A DNA stretch of 64,000 nt from the IMG/VR virus record IMGVR_UViG_3300027746_000644, positions 30,400-94,399 of that record. The stretch is one strand, 5' to 3'. A program made the translations under genes and the position numbers. This document shows, piece by piece, positions 34,445 to 52,498 of this stretch. Within the stretch, counting starts at the first letter, position 1, and every line of letters starts with the position of its first letter. Source of the DNA: a virus. Below the pieces are notes generated by a model. That model did not search any database and was not told where the DNA came from. It saw only the letters and a program-made list of their open reading frames with translations.

Positions 34445-34702
34445 ATGTCAGGACGTTCATACGGCGCAGAAGAAAAGGCAAAACTAGAAAGATTGATTAC
34501 CGAAGGATCAACAGTATTACGTGAAATCGAAGACTTGCAAGTAGGCTTAAAAGAAACAGTACAGGCAGTGGCGGAAGAATTACAAGTAAAACCCAGCATT
34601 ATTAACAAAGCTATTAAAATTGCCCACAAAGGCGATTGGCAGGCACATAATGCAGATTGGGCAGAGATTGAAGCAATTTTAGATATCACAAAACGTATCT
34701 AA
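34445..34702 (+). CDS. dsbA: DsbA-like double-stranded DNA-binding protein
   Basis: An 85-residue, mostly helical protein. The plan (EIEDLQVGLKETVQAVAEEL, then VKPSIINKAIKIAHKGDW and EIEAILDI) resembles T4 DsbA, a small DNA-binding protein that helps late transcription. The match is by pattern and position before the replication genes, not by long identity. A strong ribosome site (AGGAG) precedes the ATG. Confidence 0.6.
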   Translation: MSGRSYGAEEKAKLERLITEGSTVLREIEDLQVGLKETVQAVAEELQVKPSIINKAIKIAHKGDWQAHNADWAEIEAILDITKRI

Positions 34703-34724
34703 TAAGTAGTACACACAAGGGCAA

Positions 34725-34770
34725 GCGGGCCATAAACCGCACGTTAGGTATTTGTCAGCCAAAAATGACA
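34725..34770 (+). promoter_or_regulatory. Tandem RNA hairpins before the DNA polymerase gene (candidate translational operator)
   Basis: Hairpin 1: GCGG (34725-34728), loop GCCATAAA, CCGC (34737-34740). Hairpin 2: TGTCA (34753-34757), loop GCCAAAAA, TGACA (34766-34770). The stems differ completely, but both loops are eight bases and differ at one position. Hairpin 2 ends three bases before the GGAG ribosome site. T4 gp43 represses its own translation by binding a hairpin with an 8-base loop at this place. Self-regulation by this polymerase is the natural inference. Confidence 0.6.
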
Positions 34771-34783
34771 TATGGAGAATATA

Positions 34784-37453
34784 TTGAGCTATGTAGACGC
34801 ATGGTTTGACCGCGAGAACGATGTTATTCGAGTGGTCGAACGTAATAAAAAACAAGAACGTGAGTTCCGTGACATTCCTGTCAAACACACGTTTTACTTC
34901 AAAGACCCTCGCGGCAAATTCCAAAGCATATACGGTGATCCACTCACACGTATTATTTGCAAAAACACCAAAGAGCTGAGAAAAGAACAAGCTATTAATT
35001 CAAGCAAAAAATTGTTTGAAGCAGACATCAATCCCATCTTTGTTTGTCTGAGCGAAAACTATCTAAATGCAGAACCTCCAAAATTAAACATAGCATTTTT
35101 TGACATTGAAGTAGACTTTGATCCAGAACGTGGCTACGCATCACCGGATGATGCGTTCATGCCCATCACTGCCATTGCTGTGTACTTGCAATGGATGGAA
35201 ACAATGATATGTTTGGCTGTTCCACCTAAGAAACTCAAGATGGCGGATGCCAAAGAAATGGTCAAAGACTTTGACAACGTGATGCTGTATGAAACTGAAG
35301 CTGAGATGTTGGATGTGTTCTTGGACCTGATCAAAGATGCTGATGTATTGAGTGGTTGGAATTCGGAAGGCTTTGATATTCCCTACACAGTTAATCGTGT
35401 GACCAAAGCCCTAAGCAAAGAAGATACAAGACGTTTTTGTTTGTTCAATCAATTCCCCAAGAAACGTGAATATGAAAAGTATGGCAGGCAAGCTACCACA
35501 TATGACTTTATTGGTCGTGTGCATTTGGATAGCCTTGAACTTTACAGAAAATACACATATGAAGAACGCCACACATACAGACTGGATGCCATTGCTGAAT
35601 ATGAACTGGGTGAGCGTAAAACACAGTACGAAGGCACCTTAGATCAGCTCTACAACAATGATTTTAGAACATTTGTTGAATACAACATCAACGACTGTAT
35701 GCTTCTTGAAAAATTAGATAAGAAATTAAAATTCATGGACCTTGCCAACACGCTGGCACATGAATGTACTGTGTTGCTACAGACCACAATGGGTGCTGTG
35801 GCTGTGACTGAGCAGGCCATTATCAACGAAGCTCATCGTAGAGGGTTTCAAGTTCCTAATCGTACCAAGATGGACGACAGAGAAGACAACGAAGGTGCCG
35901 CAGGTGCATATGTTGCCTATCCCAAAGAAGGCATTCACGATTGGATTGGCTCATTGGACATTAATTCATTGTATCCTTCAGCAATTAGAGCATTGAACAT
36001 GGGCCCAGAAACCATTGTTGGACAGTTGCGACAAACTATTACACAAGAGTATATTGATAGCATGGTGGCCAAAGGTAAAAGTTTTGCGGCAGCGTGGGAA
36101 GGTGTATTTGGATCGTTAGAATATACCGCAGTGATGGAACAACAGATCGGCACTGACATTACCATCGACTGGGAGAATGGAGACGTTGATGTGGTCAGTG
36201 CCGCAGAAGTATATAGATTAATATACGAAAGCAACCAACCTTGGATACTTAGTGCCAACGGCACTATCTTTACCTACGAAAAAGAAGGTATTATCCCCGG
36301 ATTGCTCAAACGTTGGTATAGTGAACGTAAAGACATGCAGGCTAAATTAAAAGATGCAATTAAAGCAGGCAATAAAGTTGAAGAAGAATACTGGGACAAA
36401 CGACAGTTGGTTAAAAAGATTAACCTAAACAGTTTGTATGGTGCTATTCTCAACAATGGTTGCAGATTCTTTGATAAACGTATTGGACAATCAACCACGC
36501 TAACCGGTCGTGCTATTGCTCGACACATGGCCAGTAAAGTTAATGAAATTGTTGCAGGCGAATATAATCACACAGGCAAAGCTATCATCTATGGTGATAC
36601 AGACTCGTGTTATTTTTCAGCATACAAAGTATTAGAAAAAGAAATTACTGCGGGACAACTGCCTTGGACCAAGGAAAGCGTAGTTCAGCTTTACGATCAA
36701 ATTGCAGAGGAAGTTAACAGTACGTTTCCGCAGTTTATGTTGGATGCGTTTCATGTGCCTAAAAGCCGTGGCGAAGTTATCAAAGCAGGTCGAGAGATTG
36801 TTGGATCAAAGAGTTTGTTTATTACTAAAAAACGTTATGCTGTTCTTTACTATGATAAAGAAGGTAAACGTGCGGACATAGACGGCAAGCCTGGTAAGAT
36901 TAAGGCCATGGGCTTGGATCTCAAACGCAGTGACACACCAGAATTTATTCAAAACTTTTTAAGTGATGTGCTTGAACTGGTATTGACAGGTGCAAATGAG
37001 CAACAAGTACTGGATCATATTAGTGAATTCCGTATTCGCTTTAAAGCAAGACCTGGTTGGGAAAAAGGCAGTCCAAAACGTGCCAACAACATTACCGACT
37101 ATCAAGCTAAGGAAGCCAAGGCAGGCAAGACCAACATGCCTGGTCATGTTCGTGCAAGTATCAATTGGAACACACTAAAGCGTATGTATGGCGACAAGTA
37201 CAGTATGGGTATTACTGACGGCGCTAAAGTTATTGTTTGCAAATTGAAACCCAATGCTCTAGGATTTACCAGTGTTGCATATCCGGTTGATGAACTGAGA
37301 TTACCACAGTGGTTTAAAGACTTGGCATTTGATCATGCCGAGATGGAACAGACAATTATTGACAACAAGTTAGACAACTTGATTGGTGTATTGAACTGGG
37401 ATATCAACAGCACTGAAGAAAAGAATACATTTAACAGTTTTTTCGAGTTCTAA
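34784..37453 (+). CDS. 43: Family B DNA polymerase (T4 gp43-like)
   Basis: A ~889-residue replicative polymerase with 3'-5' exonuclease. Exo I is AFFDIEVDF; polymerase motif A is SLDINSLYPSAI, motif B KINLNSLYGAILN, motif C YGDTDSCYF. The C-terminus NTFNSFFEF resembles the clamp-binding tail of gp43. The TTG at 34784 is preferred because GGAG (34774-34777) sits six bases upstream of it; the ATG at 34772 lies before that ribosome site. A TTG start would itself lower translation. The stop is one base before the next gene's ATG. Confidence 0.93.
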   Translation: MSYVDAWFDRENDVIRVVERNKKQEREFRDIPVKHTFYFKDPRGKFQSIYGDPLTRIICKNTKELRKEQAINSSKKLFEADINPIFVCLSENYLNAEPPKLNIAFFDIEVDFDPERGYASPDDAFMPITAIAVYLQWMETMICLAVPPKKLKMADAKEMVKDFDNVMLYETEAEMLDVFLDLIKDADVLSGWNSEGFDIPYTVNRVTKALSKEDTRRFCLFNQFPKKREYEKYGRQATTYDFIGRVHLDSLELYRKYTYEERHTYRLDAIAEYELGERKTQYEGTLDQLYNNDFRTFVEYNINDCMLLEKLDKKLKFMDLANTLAHECTVLLQTTMGAVAVTEQAIINEAHRRGFQVPNRTKMDDREDNEGAAGAYVAYPKEGIHDWIGSLDINSLYPSAIRALNMGPETIVGQLRQTITQEYIDSMVAKGKSFAAAWEGVFGSLEYTAVMEQQIGTDITIDWENGDVDVVSAAEVYRLIYESNQPWILSANGTIFTYEKEGIIPGLLKRWYSERKDMQAKLKDAIKAGNKVEEEYWDKRQLVKKINLNSLYGAILNNGCRFFDKRIGQSTTLTGRAIARHMASKVNEIVAGEYNHTGKAIIYGDTDSCYFSAYKVLEKEITAGQLPWTKESVVQLYDQIAEEVNSTFPQFMLDAFHVPKSRGEVIKAGREIVGSKSLFITKKRYAVLYYDKEGKRADIDGKPGKIKAMGLDLKRSDTPEFIQNFLSDVLELVLTGANEQQVLDHISEFRIRFKARPGWEKGSPKRANNITDYQAKEAKAGKTNMPGHVRASINWNTLKRMYGDKYSMGITDGAKVIVCKLKPNALGFTSVAYPVDELRLPQWFKDLAFDHAEMEQTIIDNKLDNLIGVLNWDINSTEEKNTFNSFFEF

Positions 37454-37454
37454 T

Positions 37455-38228
37455 ATGAAAATTATAATTGCAGGATACGGATTTGTTGGTAAAGCAGTTG
37501 GACAAACATTGCAAACCAAGCATCAAATTGTGATTGTGGATCCCAAGTATACTACAGATCAAATAAAAGACCATCACGATGCAGATGGGTTAATTATTTG
37601 TGTTGATACGCCAACTACAGAAGATGGTGTTTGCGATATTAGAAATATTTCTAATATTTTAGACTCAGTGCCTATTTTTATGCCTGTACTGATTAAAAGT
37701 ACAGTGATCCCGAATGTACTAACTGCACTTGGAGAACTGTATAAAGACCATTCTATTGTTTATAGTCCTGAATTTTTGCGAGCGGCTACTTCGGTCAAAG
37801 ACTTTGCTGAACAAAAGTTTATGATAATTGGAGGCGACGATCCCGAAGGAATCTGGCAGGAAATCTTTAGTTCAGTATTGCCCAATTGCAAATTATTTTT
37901 TCAATGCACTGTTACCGAAGCGGCCATGGCCAAATACAGCGTAAACTCGTTTCTTGCGGCAAAGATTTCTTTTTTCAATCAACTATTTGATATTTGTGAA
38001 AAAAATGGAGCAGACTATTCTATAGTACGCCAAATGATTACACATGATCAAAGAATTGGTTCCAGTCATACCCTAGTACCTGGGCTTGACAGCGAGCGTG
38101 GTTTTGGTGGTGCGTGTTTTCCCAAGGACACAGAGGCATTTTTAAAATACACCAAAGCAATCGATGCGCCTTTTAGTATTCTTGAAACTTCGGTGGAATA
38201 CAATAAAAAGGTAAGAAAAAATACTTGA
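37455..38228 (+). CDS. UDP-glucose/GDP-mannose dehydrogenase family protein, short form
   Basis: A 257-residue NAD-dependent sugar dehydrogenase-like protein. The Rossmann motif GYGFVGKAVG is at the N-terminus; ICVDTPTTEDG, IKSTV, YSPEFLR and the catalytic GGACFPKDT are present. The C-terminal UDP-binding domain of the ~430-residue enzymes is missing, so substrate binding must differ or a partner must supply it. It sits oddly between DNA polymerase and sliding clamp, but may serve glycan synthesis with genes at 40978-44998. Confidence 0.82.
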   Translation: MKIIIAGYGFVGKAVGQTLQTKHQIVIVDPKYTTDQIKDHHDADGLIICVDTPTTEDGVCDIRNISNILDSVPIFMPVLIKSTVIPNVLTALGELYKDHSIVYSPEFLRAATSVKDFAEQKFMIIGGDDPEGIWQEIFSSVLPNCKLFFQCTVTEAAMAKYSVNSFLAAKISFFNQLFDICEKNGADYSIVRQMITHDQRIGSSHTLVPGLDSERGFGGACFPKDTEAFLKYTKAIDAPFSILETSVEYNKKVRKNT

Positions 38229-51500: not shown

Positions 51501-52498
51501 CATATATCATAGTTGATACTGCTAACACGTTTTTTCGTGCTAGACACGTGGTACAAGGCAGTGCTGATATTAAACTTGGCATGGCTTTCCACATTACTTT
51601 CAACTCTATTAAAAAAGCGTGGCAAGACTTTGGCGGTAGTCATGTGGTGTTCTGCCTCGAAGGCAGATCGTGGCGCAAAGACTTTTATAAACCTTACAAA
51701 GCCAATAGGCAAGAAACCAGAGCCGCAATGACGCAACGAGAACAAGATGAAGACAAATTGTTCTGGGAAGCATTTGACGAATTTAAAAAATTTGTTACAG
51801 AAAAGACCAACTGTACTGTGATGCAACATCCTAATCTAGAAGCTGATGATTTGATTGCTGGTTGGGTGCAAGCACATCCGCAAGACAAACATGTTATCAT
51901 TTCAACAGATGGAGATTTTGCACAACTTATTAATAGCAATGTGAGTCAGTACAATGGTGTAGGAGATTTACATATCACACACGAAGGTACATTTGATGCA
52001 AAAGGTAAACCAGTCAAAGACAAAAAGACCGGCGAACCCAAAGCCGCACAAGATCCAGAATGGATGCTGTTTGAAAAATGTATGCGTGGTGATACCAGTG
52101 ATAATGTCTTCTCAGCGTATCCAGGTGTGCGTACTAAAGGTTCTAAAAACAAGGTTGGTCTTACTGAAGCGTTCGAAGATCGTAAAAGCCGCGGATATGC
52201 GTGGAACAATCTCATGCTTCAGAGATGGTCTGACCACAACGGTGTAGAACATCGTGTGTTAGAAGATTATCAGCGCAACATACAACTATGTGACCTTACA
52301 GCGCAACCTGCAGAAATTAAACAAAAGATTGTAGAAACAATACAAATAAATGCAGTTCCCAAAACAGTAGATCAAGTGGGTATCCGTATGCTAAAATTCT
52401 GTAATACATGGGACATGAAAAAGATTTCTGATAATATACAAACATATGCAGAGCCATTCCAAGCTAGATATCAAGGAACAATTCAAAATGAAATGTAA
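51497..52498 (+). CDS. rnh: 5'-3' exonuclease/RNase H (T4 rnh-like FEN family)
   Basis: A 333-residue nuclease. TYIIVDTANTFFRARH, VVFCLEGRSWRKDFYKPYKANR, NLEADDLIAGW, ISTDGDFAQLI and MRGDTSDNV are the metal-binding acidic motifs of the FEN/T4 RNase H family. It would remove RNA primers during lagging-strand synthesis. ATGA overlap with 51066; the next gene begins 11 bases before its stop. Confidence 0.88.
   Translation: MTYIIVDTANTFFRARHVVQGSADIKLGMAFHITFNSIKKAWQDFGGSHVVFCLEGRSWRKDFYKPYKANRQETRAAMTQREQDEDKLFWEAFDEFKKFVTEKTNCTVMQHPNLEADDLIAGWVQAHPQDKHVIISTDGDFAQLINSNVSQYNGVGDLHITHEGTFDAKGKPVKDKKTGEPKAAQDPEWMLFEKCMRGDTSDNVFSAYPGVRTKGSKNKVGLTEAFEDRKSRGYAWNNLMLQRWSDHNGVEHRVLEDYQRNIQLCDLTAQPAEIKQKIVETIQINAVPKTVDQVGIRMLKFCNTWDMKKISDNIQTYAEPFQARYQGTIQNEM

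Follow-up and report, generated by a model that had tools for sequence, protein, structure and literature searches.

Two small hairpins with nearly identical loops lie in front of a DNA polymerase gene in the 64-kb window analysed here (the whole stretch of 64,000 nucleotides, part of a 94.4-kb IMG/VR virus record), and they raise the question of whether they arose by chance or form a regulatory RNA and, in the latter case, what they regulate. In T4 and RB69 the polymerase acts as a translational repressor of its own mRNA, by way of a hairpin in the same position whose loop has 8 nt (PMC3014915), and the first-pass annotation had proposed a tandem version of that operator coupled to a weak TTG start.

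The polymerase locus and its two hairpins

The gene (34784..37453, plus strand) begins with TTG and encodes a T4/RB69 gp43-like family-B DNA polymerase of 889 amino acids (PF00136, PF03104), which matches phrog_262 with an E-value of 4e-199 and the RB69 gp43 chains with an E-value of about 1e-59. Both hairpins sit between it and a DsbA-like gene (34445..34702, plus strand), which lies outside the element and was assigned by PHROGs to phrog_639 (transcriptional regulator); its match to PF11126 (E 2e-4) is under that family's cut-off. A small DNA-binding-type gene is often found 5′ of the polymerase. Directly 3′ of the polymerase stop there is a UDP-glucose dehydrogenase-like gene (37455-38228). 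No DNA similarity was found between the window and annotated phages; the nearest of these by protein are Phosso, Atu_ph07, 121Q, XbC2, SCTP-2 and Vibrio 2.275, and for Atu_ph07, an Agrobacterium phage, the annotation splits the polymerase into two adjacent ORFs (L082:1501-4470).

The first hairpin (34725..34740, plus strand) consists of GCGG (34725-34728), the loop GCCATAAA (34729-34736; GCC-AUAAA in the RNA) and CCGC (34737-34740), and the second (34753..34770, plus strand) of TGTCA (34753-34757), the loop GCCAAAAA (34758-34765; GCC-AAAAA) and TGACA (34766-34770). Stems, 8-base loops and coordinates are exactly as the first-pass annotation had described them, including the identity of the loops at 7 of 8 positions and the three bases (TAT) that separate the second hairpin from the Shine-Dalgarno (SD) sequence GGAG (34774..34777, plus strand), which is kept in relatives. 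By the criterion of that annotation, a pair of Watson-Crick stems of 4 bp each within 50 nt whose 8-nt loops agree at 7 or more of 8 positions, one instance is present in the window, and one turned up in 30 first-order Markov resamplings. The folding energy of the single sequence is no better than that of shuffles (z = +0.29), and the question was therefore settled by comparison with relatives.

An in-frame ATG is present at 34772, upstream of the TTG at 34784. Since relatives carry ATG or TTG at the position equivalent to 34784, and in at least one locus (L011) the upstream ATG is followed by a stop codon, that ATG was ruled out as the polymerase start and the TTG is probably right. The weak TTG start is not general: most relatives use ATG, with TTG in some clades.

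Covariation and pseudoknot pairing in relatives

Both hairpins are present in all 80 of the nearest polymerase loci in IMG/VR (proteins 84-100% identical), and in 53 of these near relatives 100% of the hairpin cells are paired. Over a 15-pair structure in the 53 relatives, 67 cells carry two-sided changes, where shuffles gave 20.9. The stem of unit 1 appears as GCGG/CCGC, GCAG/CTGC, GCTG/CAGC, GCGA/TCGC, GATCA/TGATC and GTCG/CGAC, among others, and that of unit 2 as TGTCA/TGACA, TGCAA/TTGCA, TGCGA/TCGCA and TGAGA/TCTCA, while the loops of the near relatives remain constant at GCC(A)AUAAW and GCCNNAAN. A covariance model built from the near relatives only, and from the hairpins only, also recovers the element beyond them, in most of 77 loci of greater distance (protein identities reaching down to about 50%), with E-values below 1e-6 for over 50 of these. 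Among bacterial genome contigs we found one partial relative, which lacks the upstream region.

For the SD-proximal unit, 78 distinct 24-mers showed two-sided changes at all five stem pairs, 99.7% of stem cells paired and a covariation score of 0.448, compared to 0.165 for shuffles and no more than 0.104 for slid controls. The covariation in related phages on which the earlier proposal was to be judged is thus there, with covarying stems and conserved loops, and the loss of stems or loops that would have spoken against it did not happen among close relatives. The comparison establishes this stretch as a conserved cis-acting RNA structure, and at this level of covariation the tandem hairpins are not due to chance.

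The hairpins are only part of the structure. In unit 1, GGC (34720..34722, plus strand) pairs with the loop GCC at 34729-34731, and in unit 2, GGU (34747..34749, plus strand) with the GCC at 34758-34760, giving each unit a second helix (S1) in addition to the hairpin stem (S2). In relatives the pairing changes on both sides: GG:CC becomes AG:CU in pseudoknot 1, and near the SD a GGY triplet stands upstream of all 103 distinct GCC loops (in two of which it overlaps an extended stem), whereas the upstream triplet of all 23 distinct GCU loops is AGY; ACC loops go with GGU and ACU loops with AGU. The first S1 pair of unit 2 is G-C or A-U without exception in the 78 distinct 24-mers, which were selected for one fixed spacing, so a fairer test of the pseudoknot is one free of spacing, combined with the polymerase tree. 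When the upstream triplet (RGY) was located without looking at the loop and with no fixed spacing, the first pair in SD-proximal units was G-C 176 times and A-U 39 times, with a single mismatch, and in upstream units G-C 142 times and A-U 3 times, without any. On a polymerase tree of 284 leaves each side of the pair changes four times in unit 2 and three times in unit 1, and no counter-example to the S1 pairing was found; the 3 + 3 independent pairs on supported branches are all concordant, at the edge of formal significance given how few they are.

The S1 pairing forms within each unit, because one unit can switch alone: L106 and L441 have AGU:GCU in unit 1 and still GGU:GCC in unit 2, and the L252 group has GGU:ACC in unit 2 and GGU:GCC in unit 1. 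Pairing between the units (the GGY of unit 2 with the loop of unit 1) was ruled out on the same ground. The resulting topology comprises an S1 of 3 bp, an L1 of 1-3 nt, an S2 of 4-6 bp, no L2 and an A-rich L3 of 5 nt, and each unit is, with little room for doubt on these covariation data, a classical H-type pseudoknot. The earlier proposal is borne out in part: the element is tandem, structure-conserved, at the polymerase ribosome-binding site and present once per genome, but it is not a pair of plain hairpins. In the SD-proximal loop only the C at position 2 and the AA at positions 6-7 are invariant, and few unpaired positions are invariant at all (one C and the AA in loop 2; A4).

Genomic setting of the element

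In 14 records (46 to 356 kb) there is one strong model match per record, always at the polymerase, and the remaining matches reach at most 21 bits. The 94.4-kb genome holds just these two units, compared to 0.3 per strand expected; a second model match in the window, at 52006, scores 21 bits, lies within a coding region and was taken as noise. The element always adjoins an SD, and it persists while the upstream genes vary (e.g. L030, L099, L106).

A putative late-promoter-like hexamer, TAAGTA (34703..34708, plus strand), lies 17 nt 5′ of pseudoknot 1, and of 155 distinct loci about two thirds have TAARTA 16-18 nt 5′ of the first GGY, mostly at exactly 17. Among the proteins of relatives is a weak match to gp55, the T4-type late sigma factor. 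TAARTA could be a T4-late-like promoter, and taken together with the gp55 match it suggests that the transcript may start just 5′ of pseudoknot 1. Several further genes of this genome also have a TAAATA motif, 7-34 nt ahead of them.

In some loci a gene lies between the element and the polymerase, with the element 5′ of that gene; measured from the polymerase, the element is then at about -200 or at -650 to -700. The element therefore marks the point where translation of the polymerase transcript first starts. In six of these loci (L100, L111, L126, L335, L338 and L350) the stop of the inserted ORF overlaps the polymerase start (ATGA), so that translational coupling would carry control to the polymerase. 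The inserted ORF of these six is Cys-rich and of 46-57 amino acids (L100:1831-2004, L126:1858-1998, L111:1843-2004; also L335, L338 and L350), and no Pfam or PHROG family was assigned to the small Cys-rich ORFs scanned. A larger inserted gene of about 200 amino acids is a 2OG-Fe(II) oxygenase by PHROGs in L158:1262-1864 and belongs to a family labelled ferrochelatase in L150:1374-1988; for L156, L164, L263, L272, L289, L313, L315 and L317 a gene of this size is suggested by an element displacement of about 650 nt.

In a distant clade (L332-L411 leaders) the SD-proximal unit is kept, as GGC/GGU:GCC or AGU:GCU, while S1 of the upstream unit is now GUC:GAC, AGU:ACU or AGU:GCU, or is lost; the flanks UCG...CAUGUAGAG around the upstream unit are conserved. 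In L212, L223, L225 and L247, which belong to a distant group, the final stem and the SD overlap, through the stem's 3′ strand. A mini-ORF reading AUG-UAG (CAUGUAG) in the leader of the distant group was ruled out, the AUG not being conserved. Some related polymerases have no element, for example many of L169-L207 as well as Phosso and 121Q, and inspection by eye revealed none before the polymerase genes of Phosso, Atu_ph07, 121Q, XbC2, SCTP-2 and Vibrio 2.275.

Possible function and relation to known RNAs

The fixed architecture, the free sequence of the stems, the conserved loop, the contact with the SD and the single copy at the polymerase lead us to read 34720-34777 as a tandem-pseudoknot translational operator in the polymerase mRNA leader, probably repressed autogenously by the polymerase; that the tandem pseudoknots exert translational control of some kind is considerably more secure. 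Each unit is built of GGY, 2-3 nt, an S2 of 4-6 bp of free sequence, GCC and an A-rich 5-nt strand that would cross the S1 minor groove, and the second pseudoknot abuts the SD of the polymerase leader. Free polymerase would bind the folded pseudoknots and block ribosome loading, so that polymerase in excess of DNA template would stop its own synthesis, in the manner of T4 gp43, which uses a plain hairpin. The retention of the element before unrelated inserted genes would fit any leader function, and not polymerase repression alone.

The repressor could instead be another protein, such as a RegA-like repressor, the DsbA-like neighbour, an SSB or a host RNA-binding protein, which we consider unlikely. 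Two other T4 proteins, RegA and gp32, are repressors of replication genes as well (PMC3014915), and the small DNA-binding-type gene so often preceding the polymerase would offer a candidate; however, that upstream gene is inconstant where the element is constant, one site per genome is ill-suited to a global regulator, and RegA sites are described as unstructured (PMC3014915). Somewhat less likely still is a tandem small-molecule riboswitch, sensing for example a nucleotide and gating polymerase translation. The tandem arrangement of compact pseudoknots, with an A-rich strand next to the SD, is reminiscent of small translational riboswitches, but the invariant unpaired bases are fewer than a ligand pocket usually needs, the element is confined to one gene and a match in Rfam is absent. 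It is doubtful that a new sensing RNA, whether riboswitch-like or reading a host factor, sets when a large phage group starts polymerase synthesis.

We give a similarly low weight to a constitutive, ligand-free leader structure, acting as an mRNA stabiliser or a ribosome standby element. Its best argument is that the element stays with whichever gene comes first, and, with the promoter-like TAARTA some 17 nt ahead of it, pseudoknot 1 would come to lie close to the 5′ end of the mRNA; yet a generic stabiliser would be expected before other genes too, which was not seen, and the conservation of GCC and AA in both units suggests specific recognition. Chance hairpins, a terminator or a DNA-level site, which the ordinary single-sequence folding might have suggested, are refuted by the comparison with relatives (strong covariation including the pseudoknot, no U-run, a fixed orientation to the SD) and retain a negligible probability.

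In regards to known systems, the autogenous polymerase operator proposed here resembles the gene 43 operator of T4, RB69 and RB49 in its location at the ribosome-binding site of a homologous polymerase gene, its variable 4-5 bp stem, its 8-nt loop and its A-rich loop bases (PMC3014915). It differs in having two units where the T4-type operator has one, in its GGY:GCC pseudoknots, for which the review has no evidence in T4 (PMC3014915), and in its loop, GCC-NNAAN here and AAUAACUC there. The loops do not conform to the T4-type core UAAC / CAAC / UAAA, that of unit 1 often being AUAAA and that of unit 2 GCC-NN-AAN, nor are the units plain hairpins of the T4 type, since S1 covaries; for these two reasons we did not class the element as a T4-type gene 43 operator. 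Like the autoregulatory element of T4/T2 gene 32, it is an H-type pseudoknot in the leader of a phage replication gene, but there an SSB gene is preceded by a single pseudoknot followed by an A+U-rich stretch, and the geometry differs (PMC3014915); the gene found here is a polymerase and not an SSB.

The closest published tandem pseudoknot is STAXI (RF01728), which is likewise repeated near genes of DNA-handling proteins; it has UUCG tetraloops and two to three or more copies, is listed for Enterobacteriales (PMC2864571) and, unlike the element here, is not tied to a polymerase ribosome-binding site. The STAXI model gave no match in 7 divergent loci (E<=10), and Rfam gave none in the window at the gathering threshold or in 34680-34800 at E<=5. 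PreQ1-type riboswitches share the compact H-type pseudoknot and an A-rich strand next to the SD. Their stem order and size differ from those of the present element, and no Rfam match links the two. No description of the element was found in the literature searched, mostly outside subscription papers, and the RNA family is apparently undescribed and absent from Rfam 15.

Most work on replicative polymerases controlled by their own mRNA concerns T4-related coliphages. Our element occurs in hundreds of environmental large-phage contigs, from a large uncultured family of bacterial viruses, in which the same need as in T4 would be met by a different structure. Polymerase RNA recognition and operator evolution should be directly testable here, given the many natural variants on offer (GGY:GCC, AGY:GCU, GGU:ACC and AGU:ACU pairings, one or two units, an SD that is free or in a stem, and a coupled small gene). 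Most likely, the tandem pseudoknots at the ribosome landing site let the virus throttle the amount of its polymerase.
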